53,289 nucleotides of DNA from Nitrospira japonica (GTDB lineage: Bacteria > Nitrospirota > Thermodesulfovibrionia > Thermodesulfovibrionales > SM23-35). Made by a program: the position numbers and the translations under genes. The notes under the pieces are model-generated. The model worked only from the letters and a program-made list of their open reading frames with translations, did not search any database and was not told the DNA's origin. Positions 15,790-23,153 of this stretch are shown one piece after another. The stretch spans positions 1-53,289 of the forward strand of contig DYFC01000021.1 of assembly GCA_020725385.1 (NCBI GenBank), in the 5' to 3' direction. Position 1 is the first letter of the stretch. Each line of letters opens with the position of its first letter.

Positions 15790-17076
15790 ATGAAGAAATT
15801 AGTTTATATACATACATTTGGTTGTCAGATGAATGTTCATGATTCTGAAAAAATGCTTGGAATCTTGGAAGGGAAGGGCTATCAAGAGACTGATCAGCCT
15901 TCGAAAGCTGATTTAATAATTTTTAATACTTGCAGTATAAGGCAAAAAGCTGAACAGAAGTTTTACAGCGAACTTGGCAGAATAAAATCTTATAAAAAAA
16001 GACATAAAAATCTAAAAATTATTGTTGCAGGGTGTATAGCACAACAAGAGGGGAAAAATATTTTTAAGAAAGCACCACATGTCGATTTTATAATAGGACC
16101 ACAAAATATCCATAATCTCGAAAAAATACAAGATGAAAAACAAGTATTAATTGAAGAAAATGCAGACATAGCAATAAATGATCTTCCTGTAAAACGTAAC
16201 AATAATGTATCTGCATGGGTTACTATAATGTATGGTTGTAATAATTATTGCAGCTATTGTGTTGTACCTTATACAAGGGGCAGAGAAAGGTCTCGTCCGA
16301 GTGAAAATATCTATAAAGAAATAACTGAACTTGCAGCAAAAGGATACAAAGAAATAACACTTCTTGGACAAAATGTAAATTCATATTACAGTGATATTAA
16401 TTTCACGCAGCTATTGAGAAAAATCAATAAAATAGAAGGAATCGTAAGAATTCGATTTGTGACATCTCACCCAAAAGATTTATCAGAAGATTTAATATAT
16501 GCAATTCAAGAGCTTGATAAGGTCTGCGAACACATACATTTGCCTTTGCAATCAGGTTCTGATGAGATACTTGTAAGAATGAATAGAAGATATTCTTTGA
16601 AAGATTATATGAAAAGAGTGAACATGTTAAGAAAAAAGATTCCAGATATATCAATCACTTCAGATATTATTGCAGGATTTCCCGGTGAAAATGAAAGTGA
16701 CCATAGAGCTACTTTGAAAGCTTTAAAAGAAATAGAATTTGATGGTATATTTGCTTTTAAATTTTCACCAAGACCTGGCACAAAAGCGGAAAAAATGGAT
16801 AATCAAATAGATGAAAATATAAAATCTGAAAGGCTTTCTGAAATACTTAGTTTGCAAGATAAAATTACCGAGAAAAAAAATAAATCACTCGAAGGAACTA
16901 TTCAAGAAATTTTAATAGAAGGTTATGACGAATTGAATGTTAATAGATTATCAGGCAGAACCCGTACAAATAAAATAGTTACAATAGATGCATATAACTT
17001 TAAACAAGGCGATATAATCAATGTTTTTATATCAAAGGGGAGAAAACATTCTCTTGAAGGGAATCCTCTGATTTAA
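15790..17076 (+). CDS. miaB: tRNA-2-methylthio-N6-isopentenyladenosine-37 synthase MiaB
   Basis: 428 residues. It adds the methylthio group to i6A37 of tRNAs reading UNN codons, using two 4Fe-4S clusters. The N-terminal methylthiotransferase domain has its three Cys (TFGCQMN, NTCSIRQ, VAGCIAQQ). The radical-SAM triad is CNNYCSYC in YGCNNYCSYCVVPYTRGRE, and the TRAM domain closes the protein (SGRTRTNKIVTID). The sequence YTRGRERSR is typical of MiaB rather than RimO. It is followed by mtaB with a 1-bp TAATG overlap. No Shine-Dalgarno; see the promoter ending 6 nt upstream. Confidence 0.94.
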   Translation: MKKLVYIHTFGCQMNVHDSEKMLGILEGKGYQETDQPSKADLIIFNTCSIRQKAEQKFYSELGRIKSYKKRHKNLKIIVAGCIAQQEGKNIFKKAPHVDFIIGPQNIHNLEKIQDEKQVLIEENADIAINDLPVKRNNNVSAWVTIMYGCNNYCSYCVVPYTRGRERSRPSENIYKEITELAAKGYKEITLLGQNVNSYYSDINFTQLLRKINKIEGIVRIRFVTSHPKDLSEDLIYAIQELDKVCEHIHLPLQSGSDEILVRMNRRYSLKDYMKRVNMLRKKIPDISITSDIIAGFPGENESDHRATLKALKEIEFDGIFAFKFSPRPGTKAEKMDNQIDENIKSERLSEILSLQDKITEKKNKSLEGTIQEILIEGYDELNVNRLSGRTRTNKIVTIDAYNFKQGDIINVFISKGRKHSLEGNPLI

Positions 17077-18314
17077 TGAAAGTTTCAATCCTTACACTCG
17101 GTTGCAGAGTAAATCAAGCAGAAAGTTCATTTATAGAAGGTAATCTAATAAATAATGGAATATCTATAGTTGATTTAAAAGATAAACCAGATTATTGCAT
17201 TATAAATACATGCTCGGTTACCTCAAAAAGTGACTACCAATCAAGACAACTTATCAGAAGAGCTTTAAAAACAGGGTCAAAAGTAATTGTAACCGGCTGT
17301 TATACACATCTTAATTCAGAGAGTATATTAAAAATAAATAAAGAAATTGTAGTTGTGCCTAATAATTTAAAACATAATATAATCAAAATGATAGATGATA
17401 ATATTAAAATTAATAGTTTAAGTTATTCTTTTAACTCACGTCCATATTTAATAATTCAGGTTGGATGTAATAATAAATGTTCCTATTGTATAGTAAGAAT
17501 TGTACGTGGAAAATCAAAAAGTATTCCTATAGAAAAAATAATAGAGCAAATCAAAAATTTCTCTGAATCAGGTTATAATGAAATTGTACTTACAGGTATT
17601 CATATTGGTTCATATGGTCATGATCTTGAACCTAAAGTAAAACTTTCAGATTTAATCAAAACTATCTTAGTTAAAACAAATATTATGCGCATTAGATTAA
17701 GTTCGCTTGAAGTTACCGAGATAGAAGATGAATTTTTAGACATGATGAATGACAATAGAATATGTAATCATCTACATATTCCAATGCAAAGCGGAGATGA
17801 TAAAATACTTAGACTTATGAATAGAAATTACGATACAAGATTTTATTCTTCAAAAATTGAAAAAATAGCGAAAAAAGTTAACAATATAAACATTGGAACT
17901 GATATTATTGTTGGATTTCCGGGTGAGACTGAAAAAGAGTTTTTTAATACGAAAAAACTTATTTCTGATTTACCAATATCTTACATTCATATTTTCCCTT
18001 TCTCAGCTAGAGAAGGAACTCCTGCTTATAACTATAACGAGCAAATAAATAATGTGGAAAAGAAAAAAAGGTGTTTAGAGTTACAATCTATAAATAAAAT
18101 AAAAAAGAAAAATTATTATGAGAAGCAACTCGGAAAAGAATTAAATATTATTATTGAAAAAAAGAATAGTGAAAATTTATATACAGGCACATCAGAGAAT
18201 TTTCTAAAGATCCCTGTCATATCAAGCGATTTGCCTTTAAAATCATGCATAAAATCGAAGATTATACAAAATGAAAAAAACAACCTTATAGGAATCCCCA
18301 TAAACAAAATATAA
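17076..18314 (+). CDS. mtaB: tRNA t6A37 methylthiotransferase MtaB
   Basis: 412 residues. Paralogue of MiaB with three N-terminal Cys (TLGCRVNQAES, NTCSVTSKSD, TGCYTHL) and the radical-SAM site CNNKCSYC in QVGCNNKCSYCIVRIVRGKSKS. The NQAES after the first Cys and the VRGKS after the cluster fit the MtaB/YqeV group, which makes ms2t6A at position 37 of ANN-reading tRNAs. The start codon overlaps the miaB stop, so the two are translationally coupled. The gene has no terminator that can be recognised; 739 bp of AT-rich DNA follow. Confidence 0.88.
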   Translation: MKVSILTLGCRVNQAESSFIEGNLINNGISIVDLKDKPDYCIINTCSVTSKSDYQSRQLIRRALKTGSKVIVTGCYTHLNSESILKINKEIVVVPNNLKHNIIKMIDDNIKINSLSYSFNSRPYLIIQVGCNNKCSYCIVRIVRGKSKSIPIEKIIEQIKNFSESGYNEIVLTGIHIGSYGHDLEPKVKLSDLIKTILVKTNIMRIRLSSLEVTEIEDEFLDMMNDNRICNHLHIPMQSGDDKILRLMNRNYDTRFYSSKIEKIAKKVNNINIGTDIIVGFPGETEKEFFNTKKLISDLPISYIHIFPFSAREGTPAYNYNEQINNVEKKKRCLELQSINKIKKKNYYEKQLGKELNIIIEKKNSENLYTGTSENFLKIPVISSDLPLKSCIKSKIIQNEKNNLIGIPINKI

Positions 18315-19053
18315 CATATTATAATTTCAGTATATTTTTTCTGCCTAAATCATAATCAAATTCGCTTAATTCTGCAATAGAGATGCCCGTTATATGTTTT
18401 TAAACATAATTAATAACAGTTTATTAACAATCATTGTTAATTTAATATGTCTGATAAGATATATTATGTAAAATAATGAATGTTCTTTTTATTTTTTGTT
18501 ATACTATTACCCTTTTTCCTATATATGAACTTATTAAAAGACAGATAATGAATTTAATCTTTTTAATATGTTACAGATGCTCTTTTTTGTAATTATTCAT
18601 GTTTTTAGTTTAAAATTAATAATTCCTGTATCAAATTCTTATAGCATATGCTTTTAAAATAGAACAATTTATTTTGGAATATTATTTAATCACTTTAAAA
18701 ATTTAATATAATATATTGTAATTTAATAAATAATTTGATTAACTTTAAGAAAATATTTAAAGAACTAAAAATAGACATAATTTTTTTAAATTACTAATTA
18801 ATATTATTGATGTAATATTGCATTAAATATGATAATTTTCTTTTTCAATAAAAATTAAATTTTCTCAAAAATATTAGTTAATAAATCATTTAACTTTAAT
18901 AATATATATTTTTTTAAAGTTATACTTTCAGTTTTTAAATTAGTAGTTCTACTTCCGGATAATATATAGTTATTTTCTATTAATTTCTCATTTTCAATCA
19001 CTATTATCTATTTGTTAAAAAGTATTTAGATTAATAAAAATATATTAAATAAA
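18315..19053. other. Gene-free, very AT-rich intergenic region (739 bp)
   Basis: No open frame, tRNA or strong fold could be supported on either strand. Long A/T runs dominate, with almost no GC-rich patches except CCGGAT at about 18956. A 17-bp perfect palindrome lies at 18424-18440. The right end leads into the DUF3343 gene with TATATT at 19041-19046, 7 nt before its ATG. It is by far the longest gap in an otherwise dense window and sits directly before the selenium genes. Confidence 0.6.
18424..18440. promoter_or_regulatory. Perfect 17-bp palindrome, operator candidate
   Basis: TTAACAATCATTGTTAA: 8-bp arms around a central C. It resembles a homodimeric repressor site. There is no regulator gene next to it and it lies about 610 bp before the DUF3343 gene and 110 bp after mtaB, so its target is unclear. 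In DNA this AT-rich a palindrome of this length is unlikely but not impossible by chance. Confidence 0.4.
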
Positions 19054-19311
19054 ATGAATAGTTACGCTATAATTACTTTTCATAATTCTCATTTTGCATT
19101 AAAAGCAAAAAGAGTCTTTGATAATAATCGTTTGAAATCAGAAACTATACCTGTACCAAGAGAATTAAGTTCAGAATGTGGTTTCTGTTGTAAAGTTTTG
19201 TGGAAAGATAAAGACTTAGTAGAAAATGTTTTAAAGAAAAATAATATTGCTTATGAAAATATTTATAGATGGGAAGATAAAGCAAAAGGCAAGAAATTTA
19301 ATTTTGTTTGA
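19054..19311 (+). CDS. DUF3343 putative Se/S carrier-like protein
   Basis: 85 residues. YAIITFHNSHFALKAKRVF, then TIPVPRELSSECGFCCKV, is the DUF3343 pattern: a short alpha-beta domain with a Cys after SSxCG. In comparative genomics DUF3343 occurs with YedF, a cysteine-desulfurase-family protein and selD in genomes using selenium outside or alongside selenocysteine. Here the two-Cys loop CGFCC could hold a thiol or selenol. It heads a three-gene unit (16-bp gap to yedF). No ribosome-binding site; TATATT lies 7 nt upstream. Confidence 0.75.
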   Translation: MNSYAIITFHNSHFALKAKRVFDNNRLKSETIPVPRELSSECGFCCKVLWKDKDLVENVLKKNNIAYENIYRWEDKAKGKKFNFV

Positions 19312-19326
19312 AAGAAGGAGGATTTA

Positions 19327-19938
19327 ATGTCTATAGAAATAGATGCAAGAGGGCTACCCTGCCCTCAACCTGTAATTAAAACAAAAGAAGGCTTAGAAAA
19401 AGCTAAAGGAAAAGAATTAGTAATTATTGTTAGCACATCTGAATCAAGGGATAATGTTCTTAGATTTTTATCTCATTCAGGTATAAATATTAATAAAGTT
19501 GAAGAAAATAACGGTTCATTTTATATATATACTGAAAAAACAAATAGAATACCTATAAATGTTGAAAAAAATGAATATATATGTTCAACCTCACAAATAA
19601 ATTTTGGAACGACTATTTTTATTAATAAAGACCGTATTGGACATGGCAATGACGAACTTGGCTATAATCTTATGAAAGCTTTCATAACAACAATTAAAGA
19701 TTTGTCTGTCCAGCCTAAGACTCTATGTTTTATGAATAGCGGGGTAAAACTTACAGTTAATGGGGCTGAAACTATTCCATATCTTAAGAATTTAGAGGAA
19801 AAAGGCATTGAGATTCTTGTATGCGGGACATGTCTTAGCTTTTACAATATCAAAGATAAATTAGCTGTCGGAAAAATTTCGAACATGTATGACATTTCTG
19901 AAACTATGCTAAAATCTTCCAAAGTCATTACTATATAA
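19327..19938 (+). CDS. yedF: Selenium metabolism protein YedF (TusA-like plus DsrE-like)
   Basis: 203 residues. Residues 1-70 are a TusA/SirA domain with the thiol motif DARGLPCPQPVIKTK (Cys12), a persulfide or perselenide relay. The second half (about 95-203) is DsrE-like, with GHGNDELGYNLMKAF, CFMNSGVKL and a conserved Cys pair region LVCGTCLSFY. This fusion is the YedF type that tracks with selenium use in bacteria. GGAGG lies 6 nt before the ATG. The stop overlaps the next start (TAATG). Confidence 0.85.
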   Translation: MSIEIDARGLPCPQPVIKTKEGLEKAKGKELVIIVSTSESRDNVLRFLSHSGININKVEENNGSFYIYTEKTNRIPINVEKNEYICSTSQINFGTTIFINKDRIGHGNDELGYNLMKAFITTIKDLSVQPKTLCFMNSGVKLTVNGAETIPYLKNLEEKGIEILVCGTCLSFYNIKDKLAVGKISNMYDISETMLKSSKVITI

Positions 19939-21095
19939 TGAGAAAAAAAGTTGTTTATTTTGATAATGCAGCAACATCTGGAATTAAACCGCCTTCTGTA
20001 ATTAAAGCTATATGTGATTGTCTTAAGAAAAAAAATGCTAATCCCGGTAGATCAGGTCATAGTCTTTCTGTAAAAGCTGCTGAAATAATTTATAGTTGTC
20101 GAGAAAAAATAGGCGAATTATTTAATTTTGATAAGACTGAAAATATAATTCTCACTAAAAATGCTACAGAATCTCTTAATATTGTCATCAACGGTATCTT
20201 AAATACAGGAGATGAAGTTATTACGACTTCAATGGAACATAACTCTGTATTAAGACCATTAACTTATTTAAAGGAAAAAAGGCATATTAAAGTAACGATA
20301 ATTAATGCAGATTTAAACGGTCAGATAAATCCAAAAGACATTTTGAATTCAATATCAGATAAAACAAAACTTATAGTAGTTACTTCTGCATCAAATGTTA
20401 CAGGGACTAAAATGGATGTAGAAAAAATAAGAGAAATCGCTCAATATAACAACATAAAAATTCTTGTAGATGCAGCACAAGGAGCAGGAACAGTAAAAAT
20501 TGATTTTAAAAAATCCCCATTTGATTTTATTGCAATTACAGGCCATAAACATCTTTTTGGACCGCAGGGTACGGGTGCTTTAATTATTAAAAATAATGAA
20601 GAACTTGAACCTTTAATGTTTGGTGGAACTGGAAGTCAATCAGAGAAAATTATTCATCCAGGTTTTTTACCGGACAAATTTGAATCTGGCACGCTTAATA
20701 CGCCCGGTTTTGCTGGATTATCCGCAGGTATTGAATTTATTTTAGGTAAAAAGATTGAAAATATAATCAGCTATGAAAAACAGTTAACAAATTATTTAAT
20801 AAAGAAATTAAAAGAAATTGAAGAAATTACTATATATGCAGCAAATGTAGAAAGAGTATCCACTGTTTCATTCAATATTAACGGATTCCAGCCATCAGAA
20901 GTCGCAGATTATTTAGACAAAAATCATGGAATCTGTGTACGTTCCGGGCTCCATTGCGCACCTGAAGCTCATAAGACCATAAATACATTTCCAAACGGTA
21001 CAATAAGATTTTCGTTGTCATATTTTAATACTAAGGAAGAAGTTGATACCTCAATTAACGCCTTGAAATCATTTATTATCAAAAATAAGAATTAG
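19938..21095 (+). CDS. Cysteine desulfurase family protein (EF2568 type)
   Basis: 385 residues, a PLP-dependent class V aminotransferase fold. The start YFDNAATSGIKPPSV, the PLP lysine in ITGHKHLFGP and the catalytic Cys loop RSGLHCAPEAH are clear. It would release sulfur from cysteine, or selenium from selenocysteine, and pass it on, most likely to the neighbouring YedF or DUF3343 protein. The order DUF3343-yedF-desulfurase resembles the Enterococcus faecalis selenium cluster containing EF2568. The start overlaps the yedF stop by 1 bp. The 3' end overlaps the convergent selB by 4 bp. Confidence 0.85.
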   Translation: MRKKVVYFDNAATSGIKPPSVIKAICDCLKKKNANPGRSGHSLSVKAAEIIYSCREKIGELFNFDKTENIILTKNATESLNIVINGILNTGDEVITTSMEHNSVLRPLTYLKEKRHIKVTIINADLNGQINPKDILNSISDKTKLIVVTSASNVTGTKMDVEKIREIAQYNNIKILVDAAQGAGTVKIDFKKSPFDFIAITGHKHLFGPQGTGALIIKNNEELEPLMFGGTGSQSEKIIHPGFLPDKFESGTLNTPGFAGLSAGIEFILGKKIENIISYEKQLTNYLIKKLKEIEEITIYAANVERVSTVSFNINGFQPSEVADYLDKNHGICVRSGLHCAPEAHKTINTFPNGTIRFSLSYFNTKEEVDTSINALKSFIIKNKN

Positions 21096-22966
21096 TTAAT
21101 TAATTGCCTCGTATCTCCCACTCTTTTAGTCAATTTAATAGCATCAAAATACTCAAGAAAATGAATTGCACACTTTCTATTTGTTGGAAAAATATCTTTG
21201 AATTCTCTGACTGTAATAAAAGGTTTTTCCCTGAAAAAGTTTCTCAGATTTTCAAGCCCTTTTTTATAAGAATCTGATTTAACATAAATAGAATTGCTTA
21301 TTTTTATTACTAGACCTTCCTTTTCCATTAATTTCAATATATTTAATATATATTTTTGTTCAATGTTAAGGATTTTGCTTAATTCCTCTATATTAGGTGG
21401 TTCTGTACCTGTTTTATTAAGTATTTGAAGTATTAAATCTTTATTGATTTCATCCTTCTTATTTAATAAAGGTTTAAAAGAAGAAAGTCTAACAATATCT
21501 TTTTCTATATAAATATCTTTCAAAGATGATAAAAGGCTGTTGAATATCTTAACATCTACTTTTATATAATTCCTGAGTTCTTCTTTTGGAATTCCGGGTT
21601 TTATCGGGTTATTTTCATGGTATTCCTTTAACTTTTTTATTATTATATCTTGAAAAATTCTAATAGCTTCAGAATGAAAAATAATATCATCATATTGGTA
21701 AACCAATTGCTTCGACCTCAAATCATTTAAAGATTGATATATTTCGGGTATATCTGCATTTATCCAGCCCTCTAATGTAGATAATCTTATACCATTTATT
21801 GATGTTCTTTTAATTCTTAATGCAATTTTTTCAGCTAAAGTACCATCATCGAAAAAAGTTAACTCATTAATGCTTTTTTGATGACTAATTTTATATGATG
21901 AAGGGTCAAGTATTTCACCTCCACCTATTGTATCAATAGGTGTAACTCTTCTAATTATAAATCTATCACCCGACATTGCAATCACCGGTTCGTTAAGCCG
22001 GAATTGACAATAACAAGTTTCACTCGGTTTTAATTCATTTTTTCCATATAATATAGTCCTTGCAGGTTTTTCGGAAGTACCTATGTGAAAATGTACAATC
22101 TCTCTATTTTTAAGACTTTTTACATGAGATAGTAATGTTACCTTTGCATCGATTTGATATGCAGGAACTAATTTATCAATGTTCACAACAGTATCTCCTC
22201 TTTTTAATAAATCCCTGTCAACTCCCTGAAGATTTATTGCAACTCTTTGTCCTGCATAAGCTTCGTTAACACTTTGACCGTGACAATGTAACCCTCTAAT
22301 TTTAGTTCTTACTTTACATGGGAGAATATCAACTTCTTCTCCAACACTTATTTTTCCAGAAAAAACAGTTCCGGTTACTACTGTGCCGAATCCTTTCAGT
22401 GTAAAAACTCTATCAATAGGCAGCCTAAAAATTCCTTTTGTTGATTTTGGATTAACTTTCAAAGATTCTTGTTTAATTTTCTCTTTCAATAATTCAATAT
22501 TCTTCATTGTGATAGTCGAAACATTAATTATTTCTGAATTTTCAAGAAAGGAGTCTTTTAGAAATTCTTTGACATCTTCTGTTACAAGATCAAGCCAATC
22601 TTTATCGACAAGATCGCATTTAGTAATTGCCACAATCCCTGATTTTATTTTTAAGAGATTGCATATATTAAAGTGTTCAATACTTTGCGGCATAATTCCC
22701 TCATCGGCAGCTACTACGAAAAGTACAATATCTATACCACCTGCACCTGCTAACATATTTCTCACAAGACGTTCATGTCCTGGCACATCTACAATTCCAA
22801 CTGTAAGTCCATTAGTATATTTAAGGTAAGCAAAACCTAAATCAATTGTTATTCCACGTTCTTTTTCTTCTTTTAGTCTATCGGGGTCAATACCTGTTAA
22901 TGCTTTAACTAAAGCGCTTTTTCCATGGTCAATATGTCCTGCGGTACCTAAAATTATATGATGCAT
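21092..22966 (-). CDS. selB: Selenocysteine-specific elongation factor SelB
   Basis: 624 residues. N-terminal EF-Tu-like GTPase: [16 protein letters not shown], the switch region [19 protein letters not shown] and TKCD. Beta-barrel domains 2 and 3 follow, then C-terminal winged-helix repeats (about 380-624) that bind the mRNA SECIS hairpin, ending in [10 protein letters not shown]. SelB brings Sec-tRNA to a recoded codon. The start at 22966 ([11 protein letters not shown]) is chosen because the longer frame would run into the tRNA gene ending 37 bp upstream. No Shine-Dalgarno is visible. It seems co-transcribed with the tRNASec-like gene. selA and selD are not in the window. Confidence 0.93.
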
Positions 22967-23003
22967 TTTTTTATAGAAATAAGAATATAAAAACTGTATT
23001 CTA

Positions 23004-23099
23004 TGGAGAGGGGTAGTGGGAATCGAACCCACCATAGCTTCTTGTCCAGAGCATCCACTGGTTTTGCAGACCAGGCGGGGCCCAGCCCCGATACCCCTC
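23004..23099 (-). tRNA. tRNASec-shaped tRNA with cysteine anticodon GCA and U73
   Basis: 96 nt with encoded CCA (23006-23004). Acceptor stem of 8 bp: GAGGGGTA (23099-23092) with TACCCCTC (23015-23008). D arm: 6-bp stem CGGGGC/GCCCCG with TGG loop. Anticodon stem CTGGT/ACCAG with loop CTGCAAA, so the anticodon is GCA (23067-23065). A 25-nt variable arm (23057-23033) can form about 8 bp with two bulges. T arm: GTGGG/CCCAC around TTCGATT. This is the bacterial tRNASec body (8/5 geometry). However, tRNASec normally has UCA and G73 (for SerRS); here GCA and U73 are the main CysRS identity elements. It lies 37 bp upstream of selB on the same strand with its own promoter. Confidence 0.9.
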
Positions 23100-23123
23100 G
23101 TTTGTATTTTATTATCGATTATA

Positions 23124-23153
23124 ATTATATGTAAAATAGCTTTTTTCTATCAA
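23124..23153 (-). promoter_or_regulatory. Promoter of the tRNASec-like gene and selB
   Basis: On the minus strand: TTGATA (23153-23148), 18-bp spacer, TATAAT (23129-23124), a consensus -10. Transcription would start near 23117, about 18 nt before the tRNA. As no terminator separates the tRNA from selB, the same transcript can carry both. Confidence 0.65.

Follow-up and report, generated by a model that had tools for sequence, protein, structure and literature searches.

A tRNASec-shaped tRNACys genomically linked to selenium genes in Nitrospirota

Why do genes for handling selenium converge on genes for a SelB and a tRNASec-like tRNA, and is selenium delivered onto that tRNA? The locus lies in the window (the whole stretch of DNA analyzed here, 53,289 nucleotides of a Nitrospira japonica contig). 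The initial annotation described a DUF3343-YedF-desulfurase unit on the plus strand converging on a selB/tRNASec-like unit on the minus strand with a 4-bp overlap, and gene calls and profile scores agree with this description. The first gene (19054..19311, plus strand) encodes an 85-aa DUF3343/Se_S_carrier protein with a CGFC motif (PF11823, 73.6 bits; cutoff, 25). The second (19327..19938, plus strand) encodes YedF, a 203-aa protein with TusA and DsrE domains (PF01206 and PF02635) and CPxP and CGTC motifs (TIGR03527, 209.8 bits; cutoff, 110). The third (19938..21095, plus strand) encodes a 385-aa EF2568-type cysteine desulfurase, selenocysteine lyase-like and of the class V aminotransferase fold (TIGR01977, 461.5 bits; cutoff, 377); its score against the SclA model, 334 bits, is under the SclA cutoff of 525. 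The overlap, which has no strand, joins the stop codons of the two units (21092..21095).

These three genes are adjacent and co-directional, as is known for selenium clusters, and the same three families stand side by side in the described DUF3343-YedF-Sec lyase cluster (PMC5322559). Another genome, G009, resembles that cluster further in having selD and a double-cubane type reductase there, whereas the window triad differs in being joined to the selB and tRNA genes (here selB* and selC*) and in belonging to a genus with no detected selD. Neither selA nor selD was found within the window, which bears out their claimed absence beside the two units, and the AT-rich spacer at 18315-19053 holds no selD remnant.

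The tRNA gene (23004..23099, minus strand) was called tRNA-Cys(GCA) by ARAGORN and tRNA-Sec by Rfam (57.7 bits; cutoff, 47). It has the shape of a tRNASec, with an 8/5 acceptor/T arm and a long variable arm, plus a GCA anticodon, a U73 discriminator, and an encoded CCA. We observed selC* genes with U73 and the 8/5 arm in at least 44 Nitrospirota genomes; among the 45 selC* relatives read, U73 is present in all and GCA in 44. One selC* carrier, L183, derives from the cultured Thermodesulfovibrio strain N1. The 8-bp acceptor is backed by covariation, with two-sided changes in 15 of 24 stem pairs; the 13-nt 3′ strand of the 8/5 arm occurs in 45/45, and the T stem is paired in 99% of cells. Because U73 and GCA together constitute cysteinyl-tRNA synthetase identity, the window tRNA is, as read from its sequence, a selC*-type tRNACys and not a selenocysteine tRNA; a sense-codon type of tRNASec, with G73 and serving as a SerRS/SelA substrate, was rejected on the basis of U73. 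For the same reason, the suggestion that selenium delivery, from desulfurase to YedF or DUF3343, is tied to this tRNA found no support.

The listed SelB ORF spans 647 aa from a start at 23035 and runs into the tRNA. Since homologues begin at M24, selB* most likely occupies 21092..22966 (minus strand), 37 nt downstream of the tRNA, and would encode 624 aa from the conserved start (TIGR00475, 384.4 bits; cutoff, 242). SelB* and the other SelB of this genome share 58% identity. In our tree, it belongs to a monophyletic clade (100/99) that is paired with selC* and nested inside a Nitrospirota family, indicating a single origin within that family. The SECIS-binding WH4 domain has diverged: identity is 54% in SelB* versus 82% in canonical SelB, and one SelB* copy (G005:C142) lacks WH4 altogether but keeps its GTPase domain. 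Outside WH4 we found almost no specificity-determining residues in SelB*, and nearly all copies retain the IDR/AGQR segments, which we take to be the Sec pocket of SelB.

SelB* is a dedicated second copy and not the cell's selenocysteine factor. The initial annotation had cast it as the Sec-insertion factor, a role contradicted by a canonical selB together with selA on contig C52, a canonical tRNASec-UCA on C13, and a UGA-containing fdhA elsewhere in the genome. A canonical selABC set outside the locus had been named as evidence against tying selenium delivery to the tRNA; selA, selB, and tRNASec-UCA were indeed found, largely completing that set, with selD missing. No SelD was detected in this genome or in its sister, G001; the weak matches were ThiL, HypE, and PurM.

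New here is that a known rare tRNA class proves genomically tied to selenium genes across Nitrospirota. Its partners throughout the phylum are yedF, selenium-type LysR, selD, and double-cubane reductase genes. Twenty-nine of 45 selC* loci lie <4.5 kb from a selenium gene other than selB, and within that distance yedF occurs at 20 loci, LysR at 14, and the double-cubane reductase at 9; yedF was found within 1.5 kb of 0/30 canonical tRNASec loci. The proposed tie between GCA tRNA variants and selenium-trafficking genes is thereby upheld; strict co-occurrence with both DUF3343 and YedF at the locus is not, since most genomes have yedF by selC* without DUF3343 or the desulfurase.

As for the window arrangement itself, comparison of gene order indicates that it is not due to chance, because it is syntenic in G001 (71-87% identity over four proteins) and recurs in G009 and L189, where selB*-selC* adjoins selD-DUF3343-yedF-desulfurase. 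Accidental adjacency in one genus, with no joint function, is very unlikely: the units are convergent and separate in the window, and G005 and G014 retain selB*-selC* with no triad nearby, but selC*-yedF adjacency is repeated in many families with varying layouts, and yedF is co-oriented with selC* in 16/17 cases when the three triad genomes are left out.

What, then, might this tRNA and its SelB do? According to a review (PMC11415595), EF-Tu does not use a GCA tRNACys shaped like tRNASec; SelB delivers this tRNA, and Cys is inserted at Sec UGA. Desulfobacterales selC* was posited to work under selenium scarcity (PMC9437257). Because a published GCA-type selC* is reported to support SelB-dependent Cys insertion at Sec UGA, the best explanation, to which we give a probability of roughly 0.58, would be that selC*-selB* is a selenium-shortage fallback inserting Cys at Sec UGA. 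The gene identities, the tRNA family, the linkage, and the SelB duplication with its diverged SECIS-binding domain are results of this analysis. The window selC* would most likely be charged with Cys, delivered by SelB, and used at Sec UGA; for Cys insertion at UGA through SelB we rely on the literature about a related tRNA, and we infer both its operation in this organism and its tie to selenium supply. A tRNASec body with tRNACys identity (U73 and GCA) would be charged with cysteine, its 8-bp acceptor stem would keep it off EF-Tu, and a SelB-type factor would carry the Cys-tRNA to the ribosome. When Sec-tRNA is short, near-cognate insertion of Cys at SECIS-marked selenocysteine UGA codons would allow formate dehydrogenase and other selenoproteins still to be made, in less active form. 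DUF3343, YedF, and the desulfurase would mobilize selenium and hand it on; the two units would adjoin because both serve the handling of selenium supply, with no selenium loaded onto selC*.

The selC* tRNACys and SelB* (and CysRS*) of Syntrophobacterales/Desulfobacterales (Mukai 2017, as reported in reviews PMC7609411 and PMC9437257) share with the window a tRNASec-like body, U73, a second SelB adjoining the tRNA, coexistence with canonical selB and tRNASec, and a CysRS lacking the anticodon-binding domain in the genome. They differ in having a bulged 8/4 arm rather than 8/5, and Desulfobacterales selC* has UCA rather than GCA; the window tRNA lacks the modified 8/4 arm with unpaired A51a, a bulge that is dispensable for charging according to a review (PMC7609411). 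In addition, SelB* here nests in a Nitrospirota family, and selenium-trafficking genes adjoin. The tRNASec-like GCA tRNACys of Desulfotomaculum nigrificans is SelB-delivered and inserts Cys at UGA (Vargas-Rodriguez 2018, via PMC11415595); it resembles ours in anticodon, in shape, and in the SelB dependence expected from a long acceptor stem, although the window lineage has a dedicated SelB*.

Three observations count against the fallback: the units in the window are convergent and not one operon, divergence or loss of WH4 in SelB* is hard to square with recognition of the same SECIS elements, and conservation of GCA (44/45) could mean that UGC/UGU is read. The last two favor an alternative that we nonetheless consider doubtful, namely, that selC*-SelB puts Cys (or Sec) at particular hairpin-bearing UGC/UGU codons as a programmed sense-codon channel. 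GCA would read these codons by normal pairing, and WH4 divergence would be expected for new RNA targets. True tRNASec-GCA exists in Burkholderiales beside selA/selB/fdhA, and a sense-codon tRNASec(GCA) is reported from Aeromonas salmonicida (Mukai 2016, via PMC11415595). These share GCA on a tRNASec body with the window tRNA, but the Burkholderiales tRNAs have G73 rather than U73. Against this alternative, we found no conserved hairpins after conserved Cys codons of selC* neighbor genes, while SECIS hairpins were present after UGA in the positive controls, fdhA and selD. Nor were hairpins enriched after Cys codons when those of moderate strength were counted; the excess was two-fold only for a handful of the strongest. 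A hairpin after a double-cubane reductase Cys codon looked promising in a few genomes, yet it is not conserved. In G027, where fdhA is of the Cys form, the gene no longer carries its SECIS.

A less probable view holds that SelB* is a SECIS-independent, EF-Tu-like carrier of Cys-tRNA, a private cysteine supply for general translation. WH4 divergence, and its loss with retention of the GTPase domain in G005:C142, would suit such a carrier, and archaeal SelB-like proteins (aSelBL), reported to bind Cys-tRNACys (PMC4329189), offer a precedent. However, most selC* genomes have canonical SelB as their sole SelB, with WH4 conserved in the family examined, and the linkage to selenium genes would be left unexplained. 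Least probable of all is that the window tRNA is a tRNASec to which the desulfurase, YedF, or DUF3343 delivers selenium. Its linkage to yedF, and to selD in some genomes, agrees with this view, but U73 replaces the G73 that Burkholderiales GCA tRNASec keep beside selA, tRNASec-UCA, selA, and selB all exist separately, and we know of no chemistry converting Cys-tRNA to Sec-tRNA.

Until now, selC* tRNACys was known as a rare molecule, and the case for its acting in selenium shortage relied chiefly on its shape and on laboratory work with a few representatives. The phylum-wide linkage to yedF, LysR, selD, and double-cubane reductase genes independently supports, on genomic grounds, a role related to selenium and points to genes worth testing. 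A private SelB whose SECIS-binding domain is decaying or being retuned also offers a natural experiment in which a translation factor alters the signal it recognizes.

A 409-aa CysRS without DALR_2 and CysS_C is encoded on contig 47, not beside selB*, unlike the arrangement in Syntrophobacterales/Desulfobacterales. Its assignment as MshC was rejected (170 bits; cutoff, 485), as was a strict, obligatory partnership with selC*; short CysRS occurs in 26 of 395 genomes, 12 of which are selC* genomes.

The genus keeps selA, tRNASec-UCA, and canonical selB, and its fdhA has a UGA with a SECIS, but selD is not detectable. It is conceivable, if improbable, that selC*-SelB* normally reads this UGA as Cys, with the SelB* RNA-binding domain retuned; if so, the same codon and signal would have been switched from selenocysteine to cysteine.

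The selenium locus of the window consists of two convergent units whose stop codons overlap by 4 bp. The forward strand carries a triad of genes encoding DUF3343 (19054-19311), YedF (19327-19938), and an EF2568-type desulfurase (19938-21095); the reverse strand carries selB, most likely at 21092-22966, and a tRNA gene (23004-23099) that ARAGORN types as tRNA-Cys(GCA) and Rfam assigns to tRNA-Sec (57.7 bits against a cut-off of 47). The initial annotation placed all five features correctly save for the SelB start: the ORF as called (647 amino acids) intrudes on the tRNA gene, but because homologues begin at M24, the gene most likely starts there, 37 nt past the tRNA. Directly upstream of the triad, on the same strand, lie genes for two tRNA A37 methylthiotransferases, MiaB and MtaB (15790-18314), also found in the sister genome, G001.

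The tRNA has an 8-bp acceptor stem, a long variable arm, a U73-CCA 3' end, and anticodon GCA; read from the sequence, U73 and GCA are cysteinyl-tRNA synthetase (CysRS) identity elements. tRNAs of such build have been named selC* tRNACys (PMC7609411). Searching with a covariance model trained on six such genes recovered relatives throughout the phylum, of which 45 genes from 44 genomes were read. U73 is present in all 45 and GCA in 44; the exception (L124:5391-5486; G367:C88) is a selC*-type tRNA with U73 and anticodon GUA, followed by yedF. Two-sided changes occur in 15 of 24 stem pairs, versus 7.6 in shuffles and 2 to 5 in slid controls. Every one of the 45 has 13 nt on the 3' side of its acceptor branch, which makes the arm structure 8/5, whereas the described hallmark of selC* is a bulged 8/4.

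Counted over the 45 selC* genes, neighbors at up to 4.5 kb are yedF (n = 20) and genes for LysR (n = 14), a split-Soret-like cytochrome (n = 11), a double-cubane reductase (n = 9), its activase (n = 9), SelB (n = 6), a transglutaminase-like protein (n = 6), the desulfurase (n = 4), DUF3343 (n = 3), and SelD (n = 3); at 29 of the 45 loci, at least one neighbor is a selenium gene besides selB. Representatives passed the curated cut-offs for YedF (TIGR03527), selenium metabolism-associated LysR (NF040786; one LysR was scanned and the label extended to the rest of its cluster by similarity), and the double-cubane reductase (NF040772), while the split-Soret representative fell below its own. When 30 selC* loci were compared with 30 loci of canonical tRNASec in genomes that also carry selC*, both cut at 1.5 kb per side, any listed gene occurred in 23 and 2, respectively (Fisher P = 3e-8, nominal because the list includes selB, split-Soret, and transglutaminase genes and because related genomes are not independent); yedF occurred in none of the canonical loci. 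Outside the three triad genomes, yedF is codirectional with selC* in 16 of 17 cases, often starting 120 to 280 nt downstream in an operon-like arrangement. The earlier idea of an association between the GCA tRNA and YedF was right and extends to many genera, but the mechanism proposed with it, selenium delivery onto this tRNA, is not supported. In the fullest layout (genome G009 and stretch L189), selB*-selC*, with selB* encoding the second SelB paired with this tRNA, adjoins DCCP-activase-selD-DUF3343-yedF-desulfurase, where DCCP is the double-cubane reductase; the window locus resembles a pared-down version of this layout.

The window's genome (2.46 Mb, 71 contigs, 96.6% complete), placed by kinship in the order Thermodesulfovibrionales of Nitrospirota, encodes a canonical tRNASec-UCA with G73 (contig 13), another SelB 58% identical to that of the window (C52:14706-16574), and fdhA with an in-frame TGA (contig 27). 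Of the two genes that the initial annotation had noted as absent from the locus, selA was found elsewhere in the genome (C52:27274-28623) and selD was not, weak matches being ThiL, HypE, and PurM. The window locus is therefore not the cell's selenocysteine locus. SelD was not found in G001 (98% complete) either, and no selD remnant was detected in the 739-bp spacer (16% G+C) upstream of DUF3343; SelD is present in 40 of the 42 remaining selC* genomes, with one in-frame TGA in every full-length SelD among the matches listed. Both sisters nevertheless keep selA, canonical selB, tRNASec-UCA, and fdhA with its TGA and SECIS core. This combination may reflect an overlooked selD, an alternative source of selenium for SelA, or a UGA now read as cysteine. 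In G003 (99% complete), another genome with selC*, no SelB was matched, although a TGA-containing selD and a further tRNASec-type gene are present.

The GCA tRNASec-like tRNACys of Desulfotomaculum nigrificans reportedly does not interact with EF-Tu, is delivered by SelB, and inserts cysteine at selenocysteine UGA codons (PMC11415595); a Desulfobacterales form (UCA, with CysRS*) is posited to serve under selenium scarcity (PMC9437257). With RNAalifold, the selenocysteine codon ranked first of 50 positions in both fdhA (12 sequences) and selD (28 sequences), and a cysteine version of fdhA (genome G027) has lost the hairpin. Across fdhA, selD, and the selC* neighbor genes, all demonstrable SECIS hairpins follow UGA codons. 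A programmed channel at UGC/UGU codons, the cognates of the GCA anticodon, is unlikely, as no conserved cysteine codon in genes adjoining selC* has a comparable hairpin. The selenocysteine-using hosts, the selenium gene clusters, and the position of the demonstrable hairpins after UGA codons favor, by analogy, a role for Nitrospirota selC* as a fallback that would put cysteine in place of selenocysteine (probability, roughly 0.6).

Among the genomes searched, an extra SelB beside selC* occurs only in one family: the window's genome, G001, G005 (two pairs), G009, and G014. The SelB* copies are monophyletic (100/99) and branch from within the family's canonical SelBs, so the duplication occurred there; we infer that it was independent of the one behind Desulfobacterales SelB*, which the tree did not include. 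Identity drops slightly in the G domain (87% for canonical pairs versus 81% for SelB*) and strongly in the SECIS-binding domain, WH4 (82% versus 54%); one selC*-linked copy of 524 amino acids (L052:2597-4171; G005:C142) stops before WH4. Nearly all copies retain the IDR and AGQR segments, which we take to form the selenocysteine pocket. A role of SelB* as a SECIS-independent carrier is judged slightly less likely than a UGC/UGU channel. In the remaining 39 selC* genomes searched, we detected a single SelB in 35, where this canonical SelB would have to carry both tRNAs, and no SelB in four.

Both sister genomes also encode a 409-amino-acid CysRS paralogue that lacks the DALR and anticodon-binding domains (L328:9045-10274; G000:C47:26045-27271 in the window's genome; G001 copy 81% identical); in G009 a short CysRS is the sole CysRS match. 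Of 395 Nitrospirota genomes, 26 encode the paralogue, often without selC*; as just 12 of these 26 are among the selC* genomes read, its association with selC* is tentative at best.

A pattern scan of one genome per species (84,980 species) recovered the U73-type GCA tRNA in Nitrospirota and two Thermoleophilia records (Actinomycetota MAGs; L157 and L172), which lack the Nitrospirota-type neighbor genes within the 6.8- to 8-kb stretches examined. The scan also yielded a second GCA set, with G73 and adjoining selA, selB, or fdhA, in Burkholderiales (Rubrivivax, Azohydromonas, Leptothrix, Aquabacterium, and Piscinibacter; among other stretches, L129, L138-L140, L143, L146, L147, L160, L161, L163, L165, L182, L196-L198, and L203) and relatives. 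These are apparently true sense-codon tRNASec genes, and their G73 and neighbors suggest that Burkholderiales formate dehydrogenases may carry selenocysteine at cysteine codons.
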